NCBI RefSeq assembly: GCF_029531655.1
Contig: NZ_JANRMI010000004.1
Location: 186,001 to 250,000 of the forward strand
Length of the DNA stretch: 64,000 bases
Direction: 5' to 3'
DNA from: Bdellovibrio svalbardensis
GTDB lineage: Bacteria; Bdellovibrionota; Bdellovibrionia; Bdellovibrionales; Bdellovibrionaceae
Part shown: positions 48,881 through 63,774 of the stretch, piece by piece
How the letters are laid out: every line of letters starts with the position of its first letter
Position numbering within the stretch: the stretch's first letter is position 1
Position numbers and translations under genes: made by a program
The notes under the pieces: generated by a model
Seen by the model: only the letters and a program-made list of their open reading frames with translations
The model's database searches: none
Told to the model about the DNA's origin: nothing

Positions 48881-48924
48881 GAAGAAGCAATGCAACACCA
48901 GCGTTGGTGTTGCATTGCTTCTTC
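48881..48924 (+). terminator. Perfect 20-bp hairpin after the barrel gene
   Basis: A 20-bp stem without mismatch (arms 48881-48900 and 48905-48924, loop GCGT) 50 bases past the stop at 48830. There is no T-run, so it may be a Rho-linked, processing or insulating element in front of the gliding operon. Confidence 0.6.
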
Positions 48925-48990: not shown

Positions 48991-49010
48991 GTGACGCCCT
49001 AGATTGTCAC
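48991..49010. promoter_or_regulatory. Inverted GTGAC repeat, candidate enhancer for the sigma-54 promoter
   Basis: GTGAC (48991-48995), ten bases, GTCAC (49006-49010), centred about 95 bases before the predicted start of transcription. A further GTCAC half-site lies at 48944-48948. Spacing and position fit a sigma-54 enhancer-binding-protein site. Confidence 0.5.
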
Positions 49011-49067: not shown

Positions 49068-49084
49068 CTGGCACTACAGTTGCT
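49068..49084 (+). promoter_or_regulatory. Sigma-54 (RpoN) promoter of the gliding operon
   Basis: CTGGCACTACAGTTGCT matches YTGGCAC-N5-TTGCW exactly; the invariant GG (49070-49071) and GC (49082-49083) are 12 bp apart. Transcription should start near 49095, giving a ~26-base leader with GGAGG before the ATG at 49121. Confidence 0.85.
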
Positions 49085-49120
49085 CCTAAGTCTTCCGGAA
49101 AACTAACCGGAGGATTTTAT

Positions 49121-49786
49121 ATGCAATTCCTACTTTCACTTGGTTCTGGCTTCACATCTGGAGATGCGCTTTGGATGTGGACTATTTTGGCAGCTCAGAT
49201 CGTATCTGTAGCTATTATCATTGAACGCTCGCACGCCCTCTTCGTGGCTCGTAAAACGAACCAGAAAGAGCTTTCTAAGCTTTTGGCTGAAGATATCCGT
49301 GCTGGTCATTTGGACAAGGCTCTACGCCGTTCATTGCAAATGGGCGTGAATCAGCCACTGGGCGTTGTTGCCTCTGCAGGTATTCAGGCAGCTCTTGATA
49401 TGGGTGGCAAAGAAGAGATCCAACTCAAAATGGATGAAGTTCTTCTTGAAGAAAACACTCGCGTTGAAAAGCGCATTGGCTTCTTGGCAATGTTTGCCAA
49501 CGTAGCAACTCTATTGGGTCTTTTGGGTACAATCACAGGTTTAATTCATTCATTTGCCGGTATCGCAAATGCGAACCCTGTAGAAAAAGCCACTATCCTT
49601 TCTCAAGGTATCTCTTTGGCGATGAATACAACAGCTTACGGTTTGATCGTCGCAGTTCCTGCTTTGATCATGTATGCAGTTCTTCAAAACAGAGCTTCTC
49701 GTTTAACAGACGATTTGAACAAAGCGGCTTTGAACTTGTTTATCCAGCTTGGCTTCCATTACGAACCAGTTTCTGACAAAAAATAA
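49121..49786 (+). CDS. TolQ/ExbB/MotA-type proton-channel protein, AglR-like
   Basis: About 221 residues from the ATG at 49121 with GGAGG. Three membrane helices (LWMWTILAAQIVSVAIIIER, FLAMFANVATLLGLLGTITG, SLAMNTTAYGLIVAVPALIM) and the cytoplasmic loop between the first two are typical of TolQ/ExbB. The TLLGLLGTITGLIHSFAGIA signature is present. With the two TolR-like proteins downstream it should form a proton-driven motor in the inner membrane. First gene of the ten-gene operon; in Myxococcus AglR has this role in gliding. Confidence 0.9.
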   Translation: MQFLLSLGSGFTSGDALWMWTILAAQIVSVAIIIERSHALFVARKTNQKELSKLLAEDIRAGHLDKALRRSLQMGVNQPLGVVASAGIQAALDMGGKEEIQLKMDEVLLEENTRVEKRIGFLAMFANVATLLGLLGTITGLIHSFAGIANANPVEKATILSQGISLAMNTTAYGLIVAVPALIMYAVLQNRASRLTDDLNKAALNLFIQLGFHYEPVSDKK

Positions 49787-49797
49787 GGACCACTGTT

Positions 49798-50250
49798 ATG
49801 AGCAACAAAGACAAAGAATTAAACTTTGAAATCAATATTCTTCCAATCCTGGATATCCTCTCTGTATTGATCTGCTTTCTGTTGCTTACAGCGGTGTGGG
49901 TTCAGATCGGCACGCTCGATACAAAACAGGCCATTGGCGACAACTCCACTGCTGGGGCGAAAAATCCTCCGTCCTTGTGGGTGACCTTGGCCGCTGATGG
50001 CAGCGTCGAGCTTTCCGTCCGCGATTTGCCAAAATTGCAAACGGTTGAGACTCGCCTGCCAAAATCCAACAACGGTGTGAACTGGACTGGTTTGGAAGCA
50101 AAGCTCGCAGATCTGAAACTAAAATATCCTGAGTTGAAAACCGGCATCGTTCGTCCTGGGGCTCAAAGCTCCTACGGCGACGTGATCAAGATCATGGATC
50201 AATTGAAGCAAAACCAATTTGAAGGTGTGGGCTTGTCCCCTCTTGGGTAA
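49798..50250 (+). CDS. TolR/ExbD-type motor protein 1 (AglQ/AglS-like)
   Basis: 150 residues. One N-terminal membrane helix (ILPILDILSVLICFLLLTAV) with the conserved Asp in PILDILSVL that carries protons in this family, then a periplasmic domain (WVTLAADGSVELSVRD ... RPGAQSSYGDVIKIMDQLKQ, GVGLSP) like TolR/ExbD. It begins 11 bases after the AglR-like gene with AAGGA upstream. Confidence 0.88.
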   Translation: MSNKDKELNFEINILPILDILSVLICFLLLTAVWVQIGTLDTKQAIGDNSTAGAKNPPSLWVTLAADGSVELSVRDLPKLQTVETRLPKSNNGVNWTGLEAKLADLKLKYPELKTGIVRPGAQSSYGDVIKIMDQLKQNQFEGVGLSPLG

Positions 50251-50253
50251 TTT

Positions 50254-50751
50254 ATGAAAACAACTTTTCTGGACACTTCAAAAAAAGCATCTCCTCTTAT
50301 GGACACCATGGTTCTTAAGGGTGGCGGCACAAAGAAGAAAAGCGGACTTCGCCGCGATCTCGCGTTGGCTTTGCCTCTGACTTCTTTGATCGATGCTTTC
50401 TCGATCATCGTTATCTATCTTTTGATTGGTACGCAAAACAGCGGAGTTGAAACCGATGTTCCATCTCGCTTGAACCTTCCACAGGCCTCTCACAGCCAGG
50501 GCTTGGATAAACAGACTGCGACCTTGCGTATCGAAAAAGGAGCTTACTTCCTTAATGACAAAGTGGTGGCTGGCGCTCAGTTGAGCGACAAGTTGGCGGA
50601 ACTTAAGAAACAAGCTCCTGCTGATGAAAAAGTCGAATTGATGATTCAAGCCGATACCGAGATGAAATATGCCGATCTCGATCCTCTTATCAAGGCAGGA
50701 TCTCAAGCTGGCATTGAAAAACTCAAATTTGCGGTAGTGCCTAAACAATGA
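50254..50751 (+). CDS. TolR/ExbD-type motor protein 2 (AglQ/AglS-like)
   Basis: 165 residues. A Lys/Arg-rich cytoplasmic N-terminus, one membrane helix (LALPLTSLIDAFSIIVIYLL) with the Asp in TSLIDAFSIIV, and a periplasmic ExbD-type domain (LRIEKGAYFLNDKVVAG, LMIQADTEMKYADLDPLIKA). Myxococcus likewise has two TolR-like subunits (AglQ, AglS) with one AglR. Three bases after the previous gene; its end overlaps the next gene by four bases (ATGA). Confidence 0.88.
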   Translation: MKTTFLDTSKKASPLMDTMVLKGGGTKKKSGLRRDLALALPLTSLIDAFSIIVIYLLIGTQNSGVETDVPSRLNLPQASHSQGLDKQTATLRIEKGAYFLNDKVVAGAQLSDKLAELKKQAPADEKVELMIQADTEMKYADLDPLIKAGSQAGIEKLKFAVVPKQ

Positions 50752-53711
50752 AAACACCAAAACACATCCTTTTTCTAAATGTAGTTCTAGCGGGTGTTCT
50801 GCTCTCGAATTCCGTCCATGCCGAGAAAATGAACAACGACACGCAAGATTTAGTCATCAAAAAAATGGACCGTGTTTTGGATTTGATGGATCGCAAAGAT
50901 CCCTCTTGGATTCCAACTCAGCAGCGCTTGGCTGACGTTCTTGCTGAAAGAGCTCGCACTCGTTTCATGCAAGAAGTCGAAGCGAACTGTGACAACTGTA
51001 AAGGCTCAAAAGACGATCGCCAGCGCGCAATCAAAATTTATGAGACCTTGCTCAGTGAAGTGAAAATCAACGAACATGGGCCGATCTTATTCCAATTGGC
51101 GCACTTGTATGAAATGGCTGGCCAACAAGATCAGGCCATCTCTCTTTTTGAGCGTATCATCAAAGAAGCCAAAGCCAAGTCTATCGACGCGGGGATCGTT
51201 TCAAGATCTCACGCTTCTTTGGGGGATCTGCTTTTCCAAAAAGGTCGTTTTAAAGATGCCAAAGATCACTATGTGATCGCGCTCAAAGATAAAAATCTCG
51301 AGAACAAGGCTTTAGCTATCTACAACATGGCTTGGTGTGACTTCAACACCGACAAACTTTCATCGGCTATTTCAACTTTAGAAGGTCTTCTCAAAGAGCC
51401 TACTAAAATTACTAAAGACACGGAAACTGGAAGCAACTACGATCCTGTATTCCATACGGACATTGTTCGTGATCTCGGTACTTTCTATGCTCGTAAAGAT
51501 ATCACAACAAAAGAAATCTCGACTTATGAGGGCTTTACTCCTAAGGAAAAACGCAAAGAATTGATTCTTAACTTCGCTCAGGAAGCAGACCGCGTTGGTC
51601 AGAAGCAAGCGGCCCACCAAATCCTGACGCGCTATATGGAGCAACCTGATCTAACTAAGCAAGAGCGTCTTGAGGCTTTTGTGCGTTTAGCGCAAGTGAA
51701 CTATGACCGTGGTGAAACAAATCAGTCGACTCAAGACTTTGCCAAAGCGGCAGCAGCCTTCAAGAATACTGATTGCGATGATTCTTCGAAGTGCGAAGAA
51801 CTTAAAAAAACCATGAAACGTTATGTAACAGAGTTGCATCGTTCTAAAAAAGTAAAACCAGATTTGGATCTGCTGAACGCTTATGCGATCTATGCAGAAA
51901 CCTTCCCTAGCGACAAAGAGATGATCCAACGTGGCGCTCAAGTGGCCACGGATATGGGCAAATACCCTATTGCTATTCAGTTCCACCGCATGATCAGCGA
52001 TGGTCGCTCATATTCTACAAAAGAAAAGAACGAAGCACTTTTGAATGAAGTCGCGGTGGCTGAAAAATCCCAAGATCCTAAATTGCAAAAAGACTCTTAT
52101 GCATTCTTCCTGAAGAAGTCTTCGAAGGATGAAAAATACTTTGAGGTTCGCTATCAGCAAGCTTACCTGCTCTATCAACAAAAGCAGTTAAAAGATGCGG
52201 CGAAGCTGTTTGATGAATTAGCTCGTGATAAAGACGGCAAAGCTGAGCTTCGCAAGAAATCGGCGGATTTGGCTTTAGACAGCTTGGCGCAACTTAAAGA
52301 CGATGAAAACCTGCAAGAATATGCTGCCGACTACGCAGAAATCTTCCCCGCTCACCAGGCGGAGTTTGCCAGCGTCGCTCGCAAAGCCTTGATGAATCAA
52401 GTGGCTACTGTTGCGAACAATCCGAAATCAACTAAGTCTGAGCTGAAGTCCGTGATGAAAACTGTCCTCAAGACAAAACTTGATGGCGCAAAATCTGATG
52501 AGCGCATCTTGATTTTCACCAACTTAAGCATCATCGCCAAAAAATTGGGCGAGGACGAAGTTTACGCGAAATCTTTGTATGCTTTAATCAACACGCCAGA
52601 CACTCCTGAGGCGAAGAAGCAGCAATACTTGGAACAATTGGTTGGTTACTACGAGCGCAAACTTGATTTCAAGAACGCTTACAATGTTGCCTTGAAGATG
52701 GAGAACTCCAAAGTCGCTCCGAAAGAGATGGCTTTCCGCCTTGGAACTTTGGCCGACCTCGCCGACTTGAATCCAGAGAAGCATTACAAGCAAGCTTTGG
52801 ATCTTGGCATCACAGGCGAGCGCGCTTTGATCATCCGTTCTCGTTTGGTTCTTTTGTCTGGCAATCCAGCGAAAGAACTGAAACTTCAATCCGGCGAACT
52901 TCGCAACAGACCTGCTTTGTTGAATGAGACCACCTTATTGGTATACGCAAAAACTGGCAGCAAAGCTGGTATTCAGTCTGTCCTGGAGATGAAGGAAATG
53001 CGTCGTCAATCGGCGGTTCAGTTCATCAACAAACAAGAATTCTATGGCAAGTTGACTGGCTTCCAAGAGCAAATTGCCAAAGCCAAAATGGACGACAGTT
53101 CAGACAAGTTGATGCAAAAAAGCATTCAACAGCGCATGAAACTTTTGGGCAAAGCGGATGAAACTCTAAGCGAAGCAGTTCGCTCAAAAGATATCACTGC
53201 TCAATTAGTGGCTTTGAATATCGTCGCGACTGAAAACACCCGCTTCGTGAAGGATCTTTCCGGCACTGCTATGCCAAAAGGTCTTACTGCAGGACAACAA
53301 CGCCAATACGTTGATGCACTGAAGGCGAAATCCAAGCCTTTCCTTGTGAAGTCTAAGACAGCATCCGCAAAGATGCAGGATTTGTGGAACAGCTCTCAGG
53401 CTCTTGCACAATTGGCGCGGGAATATCGCATTGCCCGTCCTGAGATCCAAAAGTTGCTTTCTCGTGAAATGGAAATGATCGAGCAGCTACCAGGCCGCGG
53501 AAAGATGAAAACCGCCCTTAGCGAAGCGCTTAATTCTTCGGCACCGTCGTCAGGAGACTTGGTTTCTGCCCGTAAATCCGTGGCAGAGCACCCTGAGAGC
53601 ATCAAGGACATTGAAAATCTGAAAATGGTAGAAACAAAAATTGGCCATCCTCTTATGCCGTCTTACCTGGAAGCGCGTTTAAACAGCATCCAGAAAGGAA
53701 AAAGCCTATGA
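50748..53711 (+). CDS. Large periplasmic TPR protein (GltD/GltE-like)
   Basis: 987 residues with a signal peptide (cleavage near VHA-EKM). The mature part is all-helical with many TPR-like pairs (GPILFQLAHLYEMAGQQDQA, ASLGDLLFQKGRFKDAKDHY, ALAIYNMAWCDFNTDKLSSA, RYQQAYLLYQQKQLKDAAKL). In the Glt system large periplasmic TPR proteins (GltD, GltE) link the inner-membrane motor to the outer membrane; this gene's position and size suggest that role, though orthology is not shown. Overlaps both neighbours by four bases. Confidence 0.75.
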   Translation: MKTPKHILFLNVVLAGVLLSNSVHAEKMNNDTQDLVIKKMDRVLDLMDRKDPSWIPTQQRLADVLAERARTRFMQEVEANCDNCKGSKDDRQRAIKIYETLLSEVKINEHGPILFQLAHLYEMAGQQDQAISLFERIIKEAKAKSIDAGIVSRSHASLGDLLFQKGRFKDAKDHYVIALKDKNLENKALAIYNMAWCDFNTDKLSSAISTLEGLLKEPTKITKDTETGSNYDPVFHTDIVRDLGTFYARKDITTKEISTYEGFTPKEKRKELILNFAQEADRVGQKQAAHQILTRYMEQPDLTKQERLEAFVRLAQVNYDRGETNQSTQDFAKAAAAFKNTDCDDSSKCEELKKTMKRYVTELHRSKKVKPDLDLLNAYAIYAETFPSDKEMIQRGAQVATDMGKYPIAIQFHRMISDGRSYSTKEKNEALLNEVAVAEKSQDPKLQKDSYAFFLKKSSKDEKYFEVRYQQAYLLYQQKQLKDAAKLFDELARDKDGKAELRKKSADLALDSLAQLKDDENLQEYAADYAEIFPAHQAEFASVARKALMNQVATVANNPKSTKSELKSVMKTVLKTKLDGAKSDERILIFTNLSIIAKKLGEDEVYAKSLYALINTPDTPEAKKQQYLEQLVGYYERKLDFKNAYNVALKMENSKVAPKEMAFRLGTLADLADLNPEKHYKQALDLGITGERALIIRSRLVLLSGNPAKELKLQSGELRNRPALLNETTLLVYAKTGSKAGIQSVLEMKEMRRQSAVQFINKQEFYGKLTGFQEQIAKAKMDDSSDKLMQKSIQQRMKLLGKADETLSEAVRSKDITAQLVALNIVATENTRFVKDLSGTAMPKGLTAGQQRQYVDALKAKSKPFLVKSKTASAKMQDLWNSSQALAQLAREYRIARPEIQKLLSREMEMIEQLPGRGKMKTALSEALNSSAPSSGDLVSARKSVAEHPESIKDIENLKMVETKIGHPLMPSYLEARLNSIQKGKSL

Positions 53712-53989
53712 AAAACCCATTAATAGTGGCCTCCCTTTTGCTAGTTGTGAGTAGCAGCTTTGGAGCTCCATCCTACGCTAAGACCAGCACCCCCAAGGTG
53801 ACCAAGGTTGCAGCAAATGGGACGAAACTGGGCACTTCCTTTAAGTTCGATGGTTCCGCCCTTAGAGGGAAGTACCAAAGCTCTTTAAGTACCAAAGCGG
53901 CAGTAGAGAACGACAAATTGTTAGAAGATCTTTTGGGCGGAAGAACACAGTTCGAAGACCGCATCCAACAAGATCAGGAAAGAAATTAG
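53708..53989 (+). CDS. Small periplasmic protein in the gliding operon
   Basis: 93 residues with a signal peptide (cleavage near SYA-KTS). The mature 70 residues contain FKFDGSALRGKYQSSLSTKA and a charged C-terminal helix (LEDLLGGRTQFEDRIQQDQE). No family is recognised. The ATG overlaps the TPR gene stop (ATGA) and the next gene starts three bases after its own stop, so it is surely co-translated with the machine; a small adaptor like GltF is possible but unproven. Confidence 0.7.
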   Translation: MKNPLIVASLLLVVSSSFGAPSYAKTSTPKVTKVAANGTKLGTSFKFDGSALRGKYQSSLSTKAAVENDKLLEDLLGGRTQFEDRIQQDQERN

Positions 53990-53992
53990 GTC

Positions 53993-55231
53993 ATGGGAAC
54001 AGCAAAGCTTTTAATACTTCAAAATCAGTTAGGCCAAAAGGTTCGCACCTTTTCGGTCCCTTATTCAACTGATACTGAAGCTTTGAATCTCGTTTACCTT
54101 AAAGACAAACGCAGAGTCGAAGCTTATACCAGCCTTCAATCTTTGGATGACAACAAAGTCGACTACCGCCTTTTGCAAAAAATTGAACTTTCACAAATCA
54201 CTGACGAAGCGTATGTGATCGATGGCGTGGGATCTTTGCGCTTGGCTCCGGCCAATGCGGTGAACAGCCCGACTTACCTCCTTCCCGATCAAACAGATGA
54301 CGAAGATATGAAAACCATCTTGCAAAAGACCACTCTTGGTCATTTGCTTGCAGTCTTCTCTTTGATGATGGGAACTTGGGTTTGGGCTAATTATTTTTCC
54401 AAAAAAGATGAAGCTCCCCTTGTGACTATTGTTCTTCCGAAAGAAGAAACTCCGGTTGCAAAACCAGAAGCTCGTCCTCATGTGAAAGTTTCTGAACGCA
54501 AACTGAAGCAAACGAACAAAGTGTACCGTCCGGTTGTTAACAAAACTTTGAAAACCAAACCCTACCCTGTGAAGACGGCCAAGGCCGTGGACGTTCAACG
54601 TGTGGGAGCTTTGGCCGCTTTGGGTGGCGTTCCTACTGGCAAGCAGGGCTATGAAGGTTTAGATACTAAATCTATGAAAGCCATCCGTGCCGCTGGCATT
54701 GGTTCAGGTGGCGGCGGAGTTGGCAGCACAGGTCGTGGCGGCATCAAAGGTTATATGCCAGGTTCTGGCTTGATCGCCGGCAGCGCTGGTGAAGGTGGTC
54801 GTGCTCAGTCAGCGGGCGGCTATGGCACTCGCGGTGTCGGTGGCGGCAAAGCGGGCTACGGCAAATTGAATATGGTTGGCGGTACTTCCGCAGTCAGTCT
54901 TCCACTCGATGAAGAAGCAACTGTTGAAGGTGGCTTGGATCGCGATCAAATTATTGCGGTGATCAACCGCAATAAAGGTCAAATCATCTATTGCTATGAA
55001 AAAGGTTTGCAAGCGGCTCCACAAATTGGTGGTCGCGTAGCCGTTGATTTTGTGATCGGTCCTGCGGGAAGAATCACGACCGCCAAAGTGGCTCAGTCTT
55101 CATTGGGTTCACGTATGGTGGAAAATTGCATGCTTGAGAGAATGCGCACTTGGCAGTTCCCTCGCCCAGTTGGAAAAGTAAATGTTGATGTTCTTTATCC
55201 CTTTGAGCTGACGCGCGTAAGCAGTCGCTAA
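53993..55231 (+). CDS. AgmX/PglI-type TonB-like energy transducer (GltG/GltJ-like)
   Basis: 412 residues. A ~105-residue cytoplasmic domain (TAKLLILQNQLGQKVRTFSV ... IDGVGSLRLAPANAV, FHA-like in position) precedes one membrane helix (LGHLLAVFSLMMGTWVWANY). A Lys/Pro-rich periplasmic linker and a Gly-rich segment (~230-300) follow. The C-terminal ~95 residues are the AgmX/PglI domain (GLDRDQIIAVINRNKGQIIY, QIGGRVAVDFVIGPAGRITT, MRTWQFPRPVGKVNVDVLYP), a TonB-like fold. Myxococcus GltG and GltJ have this layout and span the envelope to the outer-membrane parts. AGGTC precedes the ATG. Confidence 0.85.
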   Translation: MGTAKLLILQNQLGQKVRTFSVPYSTDTEALNLVYLKDKRRVEAYTSLQSLDDNKVDYRLLQKIELSQITDEAYVIDGVGSLRLAPANAVNSPTYLLPDQTDDEDMKTILQKTTLGHLLAVFSLMMGTWVWANYFSKKDEAPLVTIVLPKEETPVAKPEARPHVKVSERKLKQTNKVYRPVVNKTLKTKPYPVKTAKAVDVQRVGALAALGGVPTGKQGYEGLDTKSMKAIRAAGIGSGGGGVGSTGRGGIKGYMPGSGLIAGSAGEGGRAQSAGGYGTRGVGGGKAGYGKLNMVGGTSAVSLPLDEEATVEGGLDRDQIIAVINRNKGQIIYCYEKGLQAAPQIGGRVAVDFVIGPAGRITTAKVAQSSLGSRMVENCMLERMRTWQFPRPVGKVNVDVLYPFELTRVSSR

Positions 55232-55244
55232 TTGAGAGGTTTTT

Positions 55245-56312
55245 ATGAGTCACATTAAGTCGTTAATCACAATCACTGCAACAGGCTTGGCCTTGGTTGG
55301 CTGTGGTGAGTGGAAAAAAGATCCAGTTCCTAATACGAGCGGTGTGACTCTGCAAGACCTGCGTAAATATGCACAAGACCAAACGAACAATGGCCCTGAA
55401 AAGCCGCGCGTGATCACTGAAACGATCATCGTTGAAAAACCACAGGTCATCGTCAAAGAAGAATCTTCTATCGACGATAAATTCCTGGTGATCACTCCAG
55501 ATTCCCAAATGACATTCAATGAAGGCCAAAGTGCCTCTTTTAAAGTTCGCGCCCGCGTCCTTGTTCCTGGCGTTCAGGTCAAATTGACGGCACAGGGTCT
55601 TCCTGAGGGAGCAACTTTGAAAGCCTCCCAAACAGAAAAAGATCTGTATATGTTGACGTGGAATCCCGCTCTCTACACGGTTCCTTCAAATGCCAGCATG
55701 AAGACCTATACAGTTAAATTACTTGCGGAAGTGATCGTTGCTGATACTGCAAAAAGTGCTGCCCAACTTAAAGGCTTGGTCCGCGAAAAGGAAATTAATT
55801 TATTCCTTTTCAGAAACCAAGAATTGCCTTCAGCTCTTAAAATTGAAGGTTTGGCTTCCGAAGTGAGCGAAGGCCAGCTGACTCCTTTTAGCGTCACAGT
55901 ATTGGTGCCGGGAATTGATGGATCTGCTTCTGCGAAGCCTCGTCTGGTTATCAGCTATGACGGTGTTAGCTATACGGCTGGAAACAGCTTCCTTGAACTC
56001 GATGGTTCACGATACGTCGTTGCTGACCTCAACCACAAGGATCCTGAGTACCTCGGTGACTCTATGTGGAAATTCTCAATGCTATTCGATACAAAAAACA
56101 TCTCGGTTCAACCACAGTTGTCCAAAGATGGAACTATTTTGAAAAACTCCGATGGCACACGTGTCCGTTTGAGTTTCAAAGTGTTCTCACCATTTGGATT
56201 GGCGACTCCTGAAAAGCTGACTCAGATCAAAGTGAACTACCTTGTAGTTCCAGAAAAACCTGCTGAAAAACCTACCGAAAAACCTGCAGAGCAGAAAGTG
56301 GAGAATAAATAA
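55245..56312 (+). CDS. Lipoprotein with Ig-like domain, gliding operon
   Basis: 355 residues. The lipobox is LVGC (Cys ~20), then a low-complexity stretch with TETIIVEKPQVIVKEES. An Ig/cadherin-like domain spans ~80-175 (DSQMTFNEGQSASFKVRARV, LPEGATLKASQTEKDLYMLT) and a second beta domain ~190-330 (SEVSEGQLTPFSVTVLVPGI). It ends with EKP repeats (PAEKPTEKPAEQ). GAGAGG precedes the ATG. Position suggests an outer-membrane lipoprotein like GltK. One-base overlap with the next gene. Confidence 0.72.
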   Translation: MSHIKSLITITATGLALVGCGEWKKDPVPNTSGVTLQDLRKYAQDQTNNGPEKPRVITETIIVEKPQVIVKEESSIDDKFLVITPDSQMTFNEGQSASFKVRARVLVPGVQVKLTAQGLPEGATLKASQTEKDLYMLTWNPALYTVPSNASMKTYTVKLLAEVIVADTAKSAAQLKGLVREKEINLFLFRNQELPSALKIEGLASEVSEGQLTPFSVTVLVPGIDGSASAKPRLVISYDGVSYTAGNSFLELDGSRYVVADLNHKDPEYLGDSMWKFSMLFDTKNISVQPQLSKDGTILKNSDGTRVRLSFKVFSPFGLATPEKLTQIKVNYLVVPEKPAEKPTEKPAEQKVENK

Positions 56313-57064
56313 TGAAAACCACTCAAGCACTTAAACTAGCTGCCTTGGCAACAATTGCCGGTCTGACACTCACTGCGGCCACTTCATTTGCTGCTGGCAA
56401 AGCTTCTGCGAAGCAAATGAATGTCAGCGAAGACATTGACTCTTTGGGCGGCAATCAAGAGCTTATGGAAATGGCTCAAAATATTAAATCTGAAACACGT
56501 TCGCGCATTGTTCAGGACCGCTTGGTCCCAAGAAGAAATCGCGTTGAATTTGGTATGACTTACGGTGGTGTTGTTGGTGGCGATTCCTATTTGAAAACAC
56601 AAAGTGCCGGTTTCTCTATGGACTATCACATCACTCCCCGTTGGTCTGTGGGTGCAAGATACTATGACTTCGGGAATAGTTTGACGGATGAAGGTAAACG
56701 CGTTTTTGAACAAGCTCGTAAGAACTACCAGGCTGGCGGCACAGGCTACGCTGTGGATATCGACTATCCAGAGAACGCAATGCTTGCGGTGGCAAACTGG
56801 TACCCAATCTATGGCAAAACCAGCTTCTTGGATATGGGTGTGACTCAATTCGATCTTTACTTTGTAGGTGGCGCTGGCCAAATCAAACTCTCCAGTGGTT
56901 CAACAAGTCTGATCACAGCCGGTGCCGGTGTGTCCGCTTGGGTGACAAAGCATCTAACTGCCCGTGCTGAAGTCAGATACCAAACTTATAAAGACCAACC
57001 TGTCACTGGTTCACGTCAACTTGATACGGGCGTAGCCACTCTTGGTTTGGGATGGATTTTATGA
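56312..57064 (+). CDS. Outer-membrane barrel of the gliding machine (GltA/GltB-like)
   Basis: 250 residues, signal peptide (cleavage near SFA-AGK), then a short helical region (EDIDSLGGNQELMEMAQNI) and a barrel domain (RVEFGMTYGGVVGGDSYLKT, WSVGARYYDFGNSL, FYFVGGAGQIKL-like strand, ASAEV-like strands) ending ATLGLGWIL. GltA and GltB of Myxococcus are outer-membrane barrels of this size encoded next to a TPR protein (GltC), as here. Overlaps the next gene by four bases (ATGA). Confidence 0.78.
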   Translation: MKTTQALKLAALATIAGLTLTAATSFAAGKASAKQMNVSEDIDSLGGNQELMEMAQNIKSETRSRIVQDRLVPRRNRVEFGMTYGGVVGGDSYLKTQSAGFSMDYHITPRWSVGARYYDFGNSLTDEGKRVFEQARKNYQAGGTGYAVDIDYPENAMLAVANWYPIYGKTSFLDMGVTQFDLYFVGGAGQIKLSSGSTSLITAGAGVSAWVTKHLTARAEVRYQTYKDQPVTGSRQLDTGVATLGLGWIL

Positions 57065-58134
57065 TCAGCCGCAAATCTTTGATCACAGCTTCAATCCTGA
57101 TTACGTGCCTGATGGCCGTGGCCACTTCGGCCCTGGCTGACGAGCAAGGTTTCTCAGTGGAAGCATGGGGTCAGTCTTTCAAATCAGCAGTGAAAGCTAA
57201 AAACTCGCAAGAGATGCTGAACCTGCTGGATATGAAGGTTTTGGAGAAGTCTGCTTTGACTTGTGTGGATTGCTCTACCAAAGAAAAACTGCAAACGGCC
57301 CGTAAGCTTTTCGCAAAAAAACAATTTGATCAGTCTCTGGAACTTTACAATCAAATTCCCAAAGGCACTGACTACTGGTTCCAAGCCGTTGAAGAAAAAG
57401 GTTGGAACTATTTCCGCCAGAATGACTCTGAAAAAGCCCTGGCACAAAGCAAGACATTGCTGAGCCCGCAGTTTTCTGAAGTTGTTGGAACAGAAGCTTA
57501 TTTCCTTCAATCACTGACACAACTCAAAATCTGCGACTATAAAGGCATCTTTGCGACTCATGAAATGTTCAAAGAGAAACAAAAAGGTCGCGTGGTGGAC
57601 GTACAAAAACTGGCGTCGACTGGAATGAATGAGGCTTTTGCCAAAGTCGTGGCAAAAGCAGACCTGTTTCCTCTTGTGGCTAAAGACCTTGGGGATTCGT
57701 TCCTTCATTTGCCGGTTCTTTACTACAAGGACCTCGAGCTTCAAGGTCAGCTTTTGAAATTCAAAGTTTCACAAAAAGCTCTTGAAGTATTGAAAGCCGA
57801 AGATGGTGGCATGCTAAAGCTACAGGCGACTCTTGATAAAATGAATCAAGACAGCTTCAAAAAGATGAAGGCACGCCTGGCAACTTTGGCTGAAGATGAA
57901 ACCAAAGAGAATTCTAAGATCGTACAGAAATTGAACTTGATCGAAGTGGAAGCCATTCAACGCATTCACACGGATCTTTCATTGAGCAAAGATCTTTATT
58001 CAAAAGGTAAATTTAAGGACACTCAGGAAGATCAGCTCGTCTTTATGGATGACGGACGCCCTTGGATTGACGAACTCGATAAGTTTGAGGTTTCAGCGAA
58101 AGCCTGCCCTCAAGGTATCAGGAGGAAAATGTGA
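57061..58134 (+). CDS. Periplasmic helical-repeat protein (GltC-like)
   Basis: About 357 residues from the ATG at 57061, which overlaps the barrel gene stop. A signal peptide (MISRKSLITASILITCLMAV, cleavage near ALA-DEQ) is followed by TPR-like helices (KLQTARKLFAKKQFDQSLEL, AVEEKGWNYFRQNDSEKALA) and four Cys in the first half and end. GltC in Myxococcus is a periplasmic TPR protein that works with GltA/B. The last codons overlap the VWA gene. Confidence 0.72.
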   Translation: MISRKSLITASILITCLMAVATSALADEQGFSVEAWGQSFKSAVKAKNSQEMLNLLDMKVLEKSALTCVDCSTKEKLQTARKLFAKKQFDQSLELYNQIPKGTDYWFQAVEEKGWNYFRQNDSEKALAQSKTLLSPQFSEVVGTEAYFLQSLTQLKICDYKGIFATHEMFKEKQKGRVVDVQKLASTGMNEAFAKVVAKADLFPLVAKDLGDSFLHLPVLYYKDLELQGQLLKFKVSQKALEVLKAEDGGMLKLQATLDKMNQDSFKKMKARLATLAEDETKENSKIVQKLNLIEVEAIQRIHTDLSLSKDLYSKGKFKDTQEDQLVFMDDGRPWIDELDKFEVSAKACPQGIRRKM

Positions 58135-59408
58135 GACATCTAACCGTCGTCTGCATCTATTTGACAGCCTTTGCTTTGCTGAGTGCTTGCAGTCCTGAAT
58201 CCAGTGATATTAAAGCGCAAATGCCTTTCCAGGAACCAGCCAAACCTGAAGTTCCTGTCTATGACAAAGTCGCTCCGCAAGAGTTTAAGTGGATCACTGA
58301 AGATGGTGGCCAAAGCCAGTTCGACTTCAATCCCCAAGTGGATATTTTGTTCGTGATGGACAATTCGGACTCTATGAAGTCCGCCCAGGAAAACCTAAAT
58401 CGCAATATCGACCGCTTTACTGCCGGTATCGTGAAGAATAAGATGATCGACTACCATATCGGAGTCGTGTCCACCTGGGACAGTTCCGAGCGCTTTGCCA
58501 AAGCTAAAAAAGACTCTTTCAATATTGGCGATCTTCGCTATGTGAAAGATGCCAATGGAAAATTCGTTAACAAACGTTTCTACACAAAGGCTGATGGCGG
58601 CAAAAACTCTTTGGCCGCGACATTAGCAATTGGCGTGACACCTTATGCTGAAGGCGGGCCTGAGAATGAGGAATTCTTCTCTCCTCTGGCGGCTGCGCTT
58701 GAAAACGCGGGTCGTGGTGCAACGAATGAAGGTTTCTTCCGAGACAATGCTCAGCTTGTCGTCGTGATTATGACAGATGCCGATGATTCAACCAGCCGAA
58801 TCAGCCCAGAGCAGATGGCGAAAACATTGGTTGATTTCAAAGGTGGCAAAGAAGAAAAGGTTTCTGTTTTTGGTGTTTTGGTTCGTCCCAACGATCCAGA
58901 CCAATACAAGGACTGGGACTTGCGTATTCATCCGAAATATCATCCCGAGTGTTTCGACATCACTCAAAAGGCTGCGAAAAACAATGGCAAATGTACTTCT
59001 GGTTTTGGACCAGACCGTTTGGATCAGTTGATTGTTGCGGCAAATGCGAACTCTGGAACTCCCGAACAAATTCGTGCGAAGTTCATTATGAGCATCGTCA
59101 GTAAAAACTTTGGTTCTGATCTGGCTAAAATCGGAGAAGACATTACTGTCAAAACTTTGGAAAAAGAAATCTTCCTCAGCCAACGTCCTCGCGTTACAGC
59201 TGAAGGAAAATTAATGGTCCGTGTTCGTTACGGTACTGAAAAAGAGTTGTCTGCTGGAAAAGGTCAAATCATCCCGCAAAAACAAGACGGCGGATGGTTG
59301 TATGACCCTGAAAACAACTCTGTTCATTTGTCTGGAACCATCGCTTACAGCTACCAAGATGGGGCTCGTTTTGCCGTGGATTTGATCCCACTGACGATCA
59401 AACAGTAA
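58131..59408 (+). CDS. Von Willebrand A-domain lipoprotein, CglB-like adhesin
   Basis: 425 residues from a GTG at 58131 with a perfect GGAGG; it overlaps the previous stop (ATGTGA). The lipobox is LLSAC (Cys ~20). The VWA fold begins at DILFVMDNSDSMKSAQENLN, whose DNSDS is a perfect MIDAS metal site (DxSxS); further metal-site region at QLVVVIMTDADDSTSR. Only a few Cys. The C-terminal ~100 residues form a beta domain (GKLMVRVRYGTEKELSAGKG). CglB, the gliding adhesin of Myxococcus, is an outer-membrane VWA lipoprotein of about this size; this is the last gene of the operon, so I propose the same role. Assignment is by domain and context, not alignment. Confidence 0.82.
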   Translation: MRHLTVVCIYLTAFALLSACSPESSDIKAQMPFQEPAKPEVPVYDKVAPQEFKWITEDGGQSQFDFNPQVDILFVMDNSDSMKSAQENLNRNIDRFTAGIVKNKMIDYHIGVVSTWDSSERFAKAKKDSFNIGDLRYVKDANGKFVNKRFYTKADGGKNSLAATLAIGVTPYAEGGPENEEFFSPLAAALENAGRGATNEGFFRDNAQLVVVIMTDADDSTSRISPEQMAKTLVDFKGGKEEKVSVFGVLVRPNDPDQYKDWDLRIHPKYHPECFDITQKAAKNNGKCTSGFGPDRLDQLIVAANANSGTPEQIRAKFIMSIVSKNFGSDLAKIGEDITVKTLEKEIFLSQRPRVTAEGKLMVRVRYGTEKELSAGKGQIIPQKQDGGWLYDPENNSVHLSGTIAYSYQDGARFAVDLIPLTIKQ

Positions 59409-59530: not shown

Positions 59531-60337
59531 ATGAAAAACGCATTTAAATCATCACTTCTTTTAAGCTCTCTTTTGATTATCACATCCTGCGCGACAACCA
59601 CAGATGAAGGCGCCACGGGGGTCAAACGTTCGCAGTTTATGATGGTCTCTTCTGAAGAGATCAACCAACAATCTGCTGCCAGCTATGAACAAGTTAAGAA
59701 GGAAGCTCAAGCCAAGAAGATCCTCGACACCAACAAGGATCAAGTCCACAGAGTACAAACAATTGCGAACCGGATCATTCCGCAAACAGGTGTTTTCCGC
59801 AAAGATGCCTTGCAGTGGAAATGGGAAGTCCATGTTGTCACCAGTCCTGAAATCAATGCTTACTGCATGCCTGGCGGCAAAATTATTTTCTACACGGGCA
59901 TCATCGAGAAGCTAAAACTCACTGACGGAGAAATCGCAGCGATTATGGGCCACGAAATTGCCCATGCTTTGCGCGAGCATGGACGCGAACGCATGTCTGA
60001 GGAATTGGTGAAACAAAAGGGCTTGCAGGCCTTGGTTATGACCAATGTTTTGAGTGAAAGCTATGCGGGCATTGCCAACCAATTCGCCGGTCTTGTGTTC
60101 ACACTCCCCCACAGCCGCGGGCAAGAATCTGAAGCGGACGTGGTCGGAACAGAGCTGATGGCTCGAGCGGGTTACAATCCCCAAGAGGCATTGAGTTTAT
60201 GGAAGAAAATGGGATCCATGGGTGGAGACAAACCACCGGAGTTGTTAAGCACACATCCATCAGATCAAAAGCGTCTGGAGCATCTGGCGTCACTTATGCC
60301 AACCGTGATGCCACTTTATCAAAAGACCTTAAAATAG
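59531..60337 (+). CDS. M48-family zinc metalloprotease lipoprotein
   Basis: 268 residues. The lipobox is ITSC (Cys ~20). A HExxH zinc site lies in [18 protein letters not shown] (~139-143), and the third ligand Glu is in [20 protein letters not shown], typical of M48 (BepA/LoiP/YggG-like) enzymes. [20 protein letters not shown] is the conserved strand before the zinc helix. BepA-type enzymes act on misassembled outer-membrane proteins in the periplasm; likely here too. The AAGGGC before the ATG is very close to the start. Confidence 0.9.
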
Positions 60338-62367: not shown

Positions 62368-63774
62368 CTATTCATCATCCAGTTCGTCATCGCCCACGAC
62401 ACCTAGATTGTATTTTTCTATGCGATAACGCATAGATCGGAAGGAGATATGAAGTAGCTTCGCAGCTCTCTTCTTCACGCCCCCCGCAGAGTGAATGGCT
62501 TTAACCAACAACTCTTTTTCGATTTGCCCCATCACCTTGTCCAAATCAACGCCATCATCACCGATCTCGATTTCATTGGATGATGCCATCTTGCGACCTG
62601 AAGCCGTGTTAACCATTGGCGGCAATGACTCTGGTAAAATCGTCGCACCGCTCTCTAGAGCCACCGTGCGTTCAATCATATTTTCGAGCTCACGCACGTT
62701 TCCTGGATAATCGTACTTTTTTAGAATTTCCATCGCTTCGGCACTGATCGCACCGATATTCTTATTCAAACGCTCATTATACTTTTTTAAGAAATGATTC
62801 GCCAACAACGGAATATCTTCACGACGCTCACGAAGACCCGGGGTTTTAATATTGATAACATTCAAACGATAGAACAAATCTTGACGGAAAGTCCCCTTAG
62901 CAACCATCTCTTCAAGATTTCTATTGGTAGCAGCTATGATACGCACATCGACTTTGTTGTCATCTGTGGCACCCACTCTGCGAATCACGCGTTCTTGAAT
63001 CGCACGAAGAAGTTTTACCTGAATCGACATCGGCAACTCGCCGACCTCATCCAGGAACAGAGTTCCCGTATCAGCCACTTCGAAAAGACCGGCTTTATCA
63101 GAAACTGCGCCCGTGAATGAACCTTTTTTATGACCGAACATTTCTGATTCCATCAAATTTTCTGGAATCGCTCCGCAGTTCACAGTGATAAACGGCTTGT
63201 CTTTCAAAGGACCGTTATAGTGAATCGCTTTTGCAACGACCTCTTTACCGGTACCTGACTCCCCCGTAATCAAAACATTCGTAGGAGTTTGCGATACACG
63301 TTTTACCATATCGTAAATAGCGTGCATTGCCGGCGAATTTCCAACCATGTTTTGGAAGGAGTATTCTTTGACCAATTCTTTTTTAAGAGATCTATTTTCT
63401 ACTTCGAGATTGCGTGAACGAAGAGCGTTGTGGATGTTCAGGCGAACTTCATCGATCTTGAACGGCTTCGTCAAATAGTCGTAAGCGCCCATCTTCATCG
63501 CCTCAACTGCAGTCTCCGTGGTACCGAAGGCTGTGATGAGCATGAAAACGATCTCTGGATAAGTCTCTTTAACGAACTTCAAAAGCTCAATACCTGTGAC
63601 ATGAGGCATTTGAAGATCTGAGATAATCATATCGAAAGTTTTTTTAGCAAGAAGGTCTTTCGCCTTTTGACCATCCTCGGCCAAAGTGACTTCATACCCT
63701 TCTTTCTTGAGCATAATTTCTAAAAACTCGCGTATTGATTCTTCGTCATCGACGACCAGAATTCTCGACTTCAT
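62368..63774 (-). CDS. Sigma-54 response regulator, NtrC family (PilR-like)
   Basis: 468 residues in three parts. Receiver, residues 1-115, with DDE and phospho-acceptor Asp53 (IISDLQMP). AAA+ activator, ~140-380, with Walker A GESGTGKEVVAKAIH, the sigma-54 contact loop HKKGSFTGAVSDKAG (GSFTGA rather than GAFTGA), and Walker B GTLFLDEVGELP. Fis-type helix-turn-helix at the end (GVKKRAAKLLHISFRSMRYR), where 'FRSMRYRIEKY' is characteristic of PilR. GGAGCGG precedes the ATG. 38 bases after the kinase gene, so a two-component operon. A candidate regulator for the sigma-54 promoter at 49068, though that is only a guess. Confidence 0.92.
   Translation of the reverse strand: MKSRILVVDDEESIREFLEIMLKKEGYEVTLAEDGQKAKDLLAKKTFDMIISDLQMPHVTGIELLKFVKETYPEIVFMLITAFGTTETAVEAMKMGAYDYLTKPFKIDEVRLNIHNALRSRNLEVENRSLKKELVKEYSFQNMVGNSPAMHAIYDMVKRVSQTPTNVLITGESGTGKEVVAKAIHYNGPLKDKPFITVNCGAIPENLMESEMFGHKKGSFTGAVSDKAGLFEVADTGTLFLDEVGELPMSIQVKLLRAIQERVIRRVGATDDNKVDVRIIAATNRNLEEMVAKGTFRQDLFYRLNVINIKTPGLRERREDIPLLANHFLKKYNERLNKNIGAISAEAMEILKKYDYPGNVRELENMIERTVALESGATILPESLPPMVNTASGRKMASSNEIEIGDDGVDLDKVMGQIEKELLVKAIHSAGGVKKRAAKLLHISFRSMRYRIEKYNLGVVGDDELDDE

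Follow-up and report, generated by a model that had tools for sequence, protein, structure and literature searches.

A ten-gene Agl/Glt-type envelope motor operon with a terminal MIDAS lipoprotein and a predicted sigma-54 promoter in Bdellovibrio svalbardensis

The contig NZ_JANRMI010000004.1 of Bdellovibrio svalbardensis carries, in the 64,000-nt stretch analysed here (positions 186,001 to 250,000, referred to as the window), an Agl/Glt-type envelope motor operon that encodes a motor, a TonB-like transducer, an outer-membrane barrel and a lipoprotein with a metal ion-dependent adhesion site (MIDAS) together, as the first-pass annotation of this DNA had recognized. The new element, as predicted from the DNA, is a perfect sigma-54 promoter with a GTGAC-N10-GTCAC inverted repeat 5´ of the operon, a site that the paralogous operons of a second group do not have. 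We slightly favor the reading that the operon encodes a proton-driven, envelope-spanning machine of motor, transducer and MIDAS adhesin, which is switched by sigma-54 at prey entry and is not a general gliding engine.

Organization and predicted promoter of the operon

The ten genes lie on one strand (Table 1), and the Pfam and NCBIfam profiles by which the protein families were assigned bear out the order described earlier, with one TolQ-like and two TolR-like motor proteins, TPR proteins, an AgmX/PglI TonB-like protein, lipoproteins and a barrel. The spacings between genes 1 to 10 (11, 3, -4, -4, 3, 13, -1, -13 and -4 nt) are so tight that the ten genes very likely form one transcript. The operon start, previously placed at 49068, has to be moved, as gene 1 most likely begins at the ATG at 49121 and position 49069 would be the first base of the sigma-54 promoter.

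The operon was compared with 48 loci of the family, which were picked for holding a von Willebrand factor A (VWA) or a TPR homologue, so that counts over them describe the constancy of the gene order and not its frequency. These loci split into group A (27 operons, including the window and HD100 Bd0412-0420), group B (12 operons, including HD100 Bd2368-2377) and a mixed remainder, group C (nine). The ten-gene order is identical in all 48 with the VWA gene last, two loci having two VWA genes, and the 13-nt overlap of the barrel gene with the GltC-like gene is common to most of the loci listed. The layout had been taken for new; the same order is found in two HD100 operons, one of which was reported in 2010 (PMC2797640), and judged by gene order it is an old, family-wide arrangement. 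Homologues of the group-A TPR protein (at least 43% identity) are present in 28 of 66 family genomes and in 22 of the 24 genomes of the genus. The flanks of the operon are common only with its closest relative, save one upstream gene that is common to five others; because flanking genes are scarcely shared among relatives, the ten genes are the unit. The M48-family peptidase lipoprotein gene directly 3´ of the operon is likewise found at this place only in the closest relative.

The sigma-54 consensus is matched at 11 of 11 positions in 18 of the 27 group-A operons, at ten in five, at nine in three and at eight in one, and the distance to gene 1 is comparable in most of them. The group-B operons score at most 8/11, no better than shuffled sequence. 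In the 3.9-Mb window genome there are 11 occurrences of the exact pattern (five forward, six reverse), and in HD100 ten, compared with one and zero for the reversed pattern. In both the window genome and HD100, exact sites stand before conserved genes as well, and their number, about ten in each, hints at a small regulon under sigma-54. One such site stands 24 nt before a flagellar-rod-like gene in each of the two genomes. The window genome contains rpoN, and the operon would be transcribed by sigma-54 RNA polymerase. A scan for sigma-70 promoters was uninformative, as it returned fewer sites (6) than shuffled sequence (13.6).

The GTGAC-N10-GTCAC repeat is matched at all ten positions in nine of the 27 group-A operons, including those of the window and HD100, where it lies 57–60 nt 5´ of the sigma-54 site. 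It occurs a single time in the window genome. The combination of repeat and sigma-54 site is found once per genome in nine of 24 Bdellovibrio genomes, each time at the window-type operon; these counts concern a repeat that was picked after looking at the same upstream regions, and four of the nine genomes that carry it are close relatives. The NtrC-type response regulator encoded 3 kb downstream of the operon is possibly the activator of this promoter. The gap between the operon and the gene before it holds a perfect palindrome without a loop, possibly a terminator, 144 nt 5´ of the sigma-54 site; it was set aside as an activator site, none being found 5´ of the other group-A operons.

Table 1. 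The operon, its upstream elements and neighboring features in window coordinates.
Feature	Position	Strand	Evidence and remarks
Perfect inverted repeat GTGAC-N10-GTCAC, candidate activator (enhancer-binding protein) site	48991..49010		58 nt 5´ of sigma-54 site
Predicted sigma-54 (-24/-12) promoter TGGCACTACAGTTGCT	49069..49084	+	11/11 consensus; 36 nt before ATG 49121
Operon, ten Agl/Glt-type envelope motor genes	49121-59408	+	order confirmed
Gene 1, AglR-like (TolQ/MotA family) motor protein, 221 aa	49121..49786	+	PF01618, 103.9 bits
Gene 2, first TolR/ExbD-like protein, AglQ position, membrane Asp19	49798..50250	+	PF02472, 72.4 bits
Gene 3, second TolR/ExbD-like protein, AglS position, membrane Asp47	50254..50751	+	PF02472, 78.7 bits
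Gene 4, periplasmic TPR protein, 987 aa, GltD position	50748..53711	+	TPR_19, E 1.4e-9
Gene 5, 93 aa, signal-peptide-like N terminus, GltF position	53708..53989	+	size and position
Gene 6, GltG/TonB-like transducer	53993..55231	+	NCBIfam AgmX/PglI C-terminal domain, 98.4 bits; Pfam TonB_C
Gene 7, lipoprotein, two Ig-like beta-sandwich domains	55245..56312	+	structure model; invariant Cys20
Gene 8, outer-membrane beta-barrel, GltA/GltB position	56312..57064	+	TIGR04565 OMP_myx_plus, 100.9 bits (cut-off 60)
Gene 9, GltC-like periplasmic protein, 360 aa	57052..58134	+	NCBIfam GltC, 43 bits (cut-off 450)
Gene 10, VWA lipoprotein, 425 aa, MIDAS DNSDS 77-81	58131..59408	+	PF00092, 24.7 bits
Perfect 44-base palindrome	48881-48924		22-bp arms, no loop
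M48-family peptidase lipoprotein gene	59531-60337		directly 3´ of operon
NtrC-type response regulator, sigma-54 activator domain	62368-63774	-	candidate activator

Motor, transducer and lipoproteins

The motor consists of an AglR-type TolQ homologue and two TolR homologues, all above the cut-offs of PF01618 and PF02472, and the membrane aspartates of the TolR homologues are kept: Asp47 of the AglS-position protein in 48 of 48 relatives and Asp19 of the AglQ-position protein in 46. Membership of Tol-Pal or ExbBD-TonB was rejected, since the scores stay far below the NCBIfam equivalog cut-offs (TolQ, 80 against 221 bits; ExbB, 64 against 206; TolR, at most 43 against 127), and no profile match to TolA, TolB or Pal is found among the ten proteins.

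The gene 6 product consists of a short N-terminal domain, a single membrane helix that contains His117, a periplasmic linker and a TonB-like C terminus. TonB and TolA bind their motors through a conserved histidine in this helix (PMC12204202), which is present in all 27 transducers of group A and in none of the 12 of group B. The protein reaches 119 bits with the NCBIfam GltG model (cut-off 650) and matches model positions 435-644 only, the FHA part being unmatched. The gene 4 product is comparable in size and position to GltD of M. xanthus (1191 aa). The gene 5 product has no significant Pfam or NCBIfam match; it corresponds to GltF (89 aa, with a signal peptide) in size and in its position directly before GltG, and is present in 48 of 48 loci. 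A PHROG search with three of the operon proteins gave no match.

The comparison with the Glt system, made with NCBIfam models and the table in PMC3169522, does not uphold the description of the operon as a complete Agl/Glt set. GltE, GltH, GltI and GltK have no NCBIfam match at E ≤ 0.1 among the ten proteins, and may lie elsewhere in the genome. The GltJ model is matched only through the C-terminal domain that it has in common with gene 6 (32 against 450 bits). A GltE-like second TPR protein and an FHA match are missing, there is a single barrel, and a fuller set stands at another locus (see below). Relative to the canonical Glt system and to AglRQS-GltA-K of Myxococcus, the operon has the Ig-like and the VWA lipoprotein in addition, and a second barrel is not found.

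The VWA protein has its lipobox cysteine at position 20 and a perfect MIDAS (D77-N-S79-D-S81), as first annotated, and C20, D77, S79, S81 and D216 are kept in at least 97% of the 48 relatives. In the AlphaFold2 model (predicted local distance difference test score, pLDDT, of 84.6), an integrin-I-like domain is inserted in a beta-rich domain built from both termini. The model can be superimposed on an integrin I domain with a Z score of 15.3 and a root-mean-square deviation (rmsd) of 3.1 over 190 aligned residues; residues 52-425 match an integrin beta subunit with a Z score of 15.1 and an rmsd of 8.0 over 259 residues. A sequence search of the PDB with the protein gave no match at E ≤ 1. The label CglB-like holds for the VWA domain and the intact MIDAS, which CglB shares as a lipoprotein; beyond this level the profiles reach only CglD (33 bits, cut-off 400) and MIDASAdhsBdello (24 bits, cut-off 700), far under their cut-offs, and all 23 VWA members tested match these two families only. 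CglB membership thus stays unproven at the sequence level. Identity of the VWA proteins drops to 28–33% between groups. Two of the group-B operons have a tandem pair of VWA lipoprotein genes at their end.

The described adhesins Bd0875 and Bd1483 have the same architecture of lipobox, MIDAS and VWA domain inserted in a beta-rich domain (PMC11003981), and by analogy with Bd0875 the VWA protein is presumably exposed on the cell surface. It was rejected as the ortholog of Bd0875, as its score with NF052240 is 24 bits (cut-off 700) and a separate ortholog in the same genome reaches 733 bits.

The gene 7 lipoprotein, whose Cys20 is invariant in an alignment of 37 rows, has no Glt counterpart that we could find. 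Its AlphaFold2 model (pLDDT 81) is closest to the SraP adhesin, at a middling score (Z 9.6, rmsd 3.0, 175 aligned residues). It was found only in operons of the ten-gene kind, and searches across the phylum detect it in 125 of 369 genomes.

Related operons in the same genome and in HD100

The window operon corresponds gene for gene to an HD100 operon at 388-398 kb (62–85% identity), and in the AglR and GltG trees the two fall into one clade (support 0.79 and 0.99, respectively), to which the remaining HD100 operons do not belong. The four agl operons of HD100 have their motor genes at 0.398, 0.787, 1.403 and 2.282 Mb, and with Bd0420, Bd0828-0838, Bd1481 and Bd2377 as their numbers this comes to about 0.95 kb for each Bd number; at 1.40 Mb, the succession of VWA gene, small gene, AglR and AglQ fits the published Bd1483, Bd1481 (aglR) and Bd1480 (aglQ). 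From position, gene order and published description, the operon at 388-398 kb is Bd0412-Bd0420, nine numbers for ten genes, so that the VWA gene is Bd0412 or a neighbor. The two operons agree in their ten genes and in the order of these, in the sigma-54 site before gene 1 and in the inverted repeat, and together with the clade this places the window operon in the Bd0412-0420 type. Bd0412-0420 was reported as a large tonB/agl operon whose expression is raised 4-7 fold at 30 min of predation, with no such rise in host-independent growth (PMC2797640). No description of its terminal VWA gene or its promoter was found in the published accounts searched.

The canonical gliding cluster lies on contig 3 of the same genome (about 43-55 kb) and encodes two small outer-membrane protein-like proteins, GltC, GltD, the GltE lipoprotein, GltF, GltG and AglR, Q and S, the Glt proteins being assigned by size and order. 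It is of the Bd0828-0838 type and shares with the window operon the motor, GltD, GltF-sized, GltG and GltC-like genes and a barrel. Its GltG (697 aa) matches both the FHA and the TonB part of the GltG model, unlike gene 6, and no DxSxS lipoprotein was seen among its open reading frames. rpoN follows the canonical AglRQS motor genes at a distance of a few genes, both in the window genome (contig 3, 30000-48500) and in HD100.

Bd2368-Bd2377 of HD100 (group B) has the ten-gene order and the terminal VWA lipoprotein in common with the window operon at 22–53% identity; it differs in lacking the sigma-54 site and the membrane histidine of GltG, and in having a longer GltC (~535 aa) and a shorter VWA protein (~340 aa). 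Bd1473-Bd1483 also combines AglR-like, two TolR-like, TPR, GltG-like and GltC-like genes and a barrel with a VWA lipoprotein (Bd1483). However, its VWA gene is first and not last, no Ig-like lipoprotein was found in it, and its expression pattern differs from that of the window-type operon. Contig 4, on which the window operon lies, also carries a counterpart of Bd1473-1483 with the VWA gene first, ~37 kb 3´ of the window operon (region 274000-292000).

A probable role at prey contact

The TolQ-like ring with its two TolR-like partners, driven by protons, would drive the single-helix GltG-like transducer, whose TonB-like end would reach toward the outer membrane. The TPR proteins, the barrel and the Ig-like lipoprotein, which presumably assemble with the motor into one complex, would hand the force on to the MIDAS lipoprotein, which would grip a ligand at the cell surface. 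The sigma-54 RNA polymerase would switch the operon, probably with one activator bound at the GTGAC-N10-GTCAC repeat. Such a machine would most likely act at predator-prey contact or in newly entered prey, because the operon is orthologous to an HD100 operon that is induced early in predation; the separate promoter likewise points to a role in prey.

Several observations weigh against this role. The genome that we take to be that of the epibiotic predator P. exovorus JSS has the canonical type only and no window-type copy, which weakly suggests, for this one genome, that the window-type operon is dispensable for attachment-type predation. No mutant of a window-type operon was found in the literature searched. 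The main text of a B. bacteriovorus transposon screen gives AglS (Bd0838) of the canonical cluster as required for attachment to prey and for killing, and in the passages of that text examined for Bd04 numbers, Bd0407, Bd0470 and Bd0474 are named but no gene of this operon (PMC6561027). Deletion of Bd1483, the MIDAS lipoprotein of another agl operon, had no predation phenotype (PMC11003981).

The first-pass annotation had left surface gliding and prey handling side by side; the expression of the HD100 counterpart favors the latter. A general gliding engine, in which the barrel and the VWA adhesin would be moved along the cell by the motor so that the cell is hauled over any surface, as with AglRQS-Glt-CglB in Myxococcus, is rather unlikely. 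The motor and transducer are homologous to Agl/Glt, B. bacteriovorus glides by machinery described as still to be identified (PMC13104615), and transposon hits in Bd1481 and Bd1483 of the sister operon reduce predation on biofilms (PMC2277423). However, the canonical cluster is a separate locus and the best published gliding candidate (PMC3169522). Furthermore, induction on surfaces is known for bd1480 and bd3099 and not for the window-type operon (PMC9140294), and expression of the HD100 counterpart goes up when prey is entered, not during host-independent growth.

An energized transport or export system, of the TonB/Tol-like or the Nfs-sporulation-like kind, whose VWA and Ig-like lipoproteins would act at the outer membrane on a polymer or a protein, also seems improbable. 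The C terminus of gene 6 is TonB-like, Glt-like duplicates have non-motility roles in Myxococcus (PMC3169522), and energized uptake or secretion across the membrane was offered as an alternative by the authors of the expression study (PMC2797640); but the ten genes include no TonB-dependent receptor or secretion gene, and the last gene encodes a MIDAS adhesin-type protein at every one of the 48 loci. That the VWA gene is a co-transcribed passenger outside the machine, as its low identity between groups and its first place in Bd1473-1483-type operons could suggest, is very unlikely given its constant last place in the 48 loci, its two copies in two of them and the conserved lipobox cysteine and MIDAS.

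For Bdellovibrio, a 2026 review names the motor of gliding, the adhesins and the transmission of force as a major open challenge (PMC13104615). The agl-type operons can now be told apart by gene content, place of the VWA gene and promoter. HD100 has at least two further agl-linked MIDAS lipoproteins, neither of which is among the four genes deleted (PMC11003981), a possible reason for the silent Bd1483 deletion. The window-type operon joins a single motor to a single MIDAS adhesin as a conserved unit, with a specific regulatory sequence that is open to mutation. Tentatively, Bdellovibrio may have duplicated the Agl/Glt machine and made of one copy a prey-contact device, distinct from the gliding machine, which its own sigma-54 promoter and activator site would turn on at prey entry and in which the motor would pull on an integrin-like MIDAS lipoprotein and so work the predator through the prey envelope or inside it.

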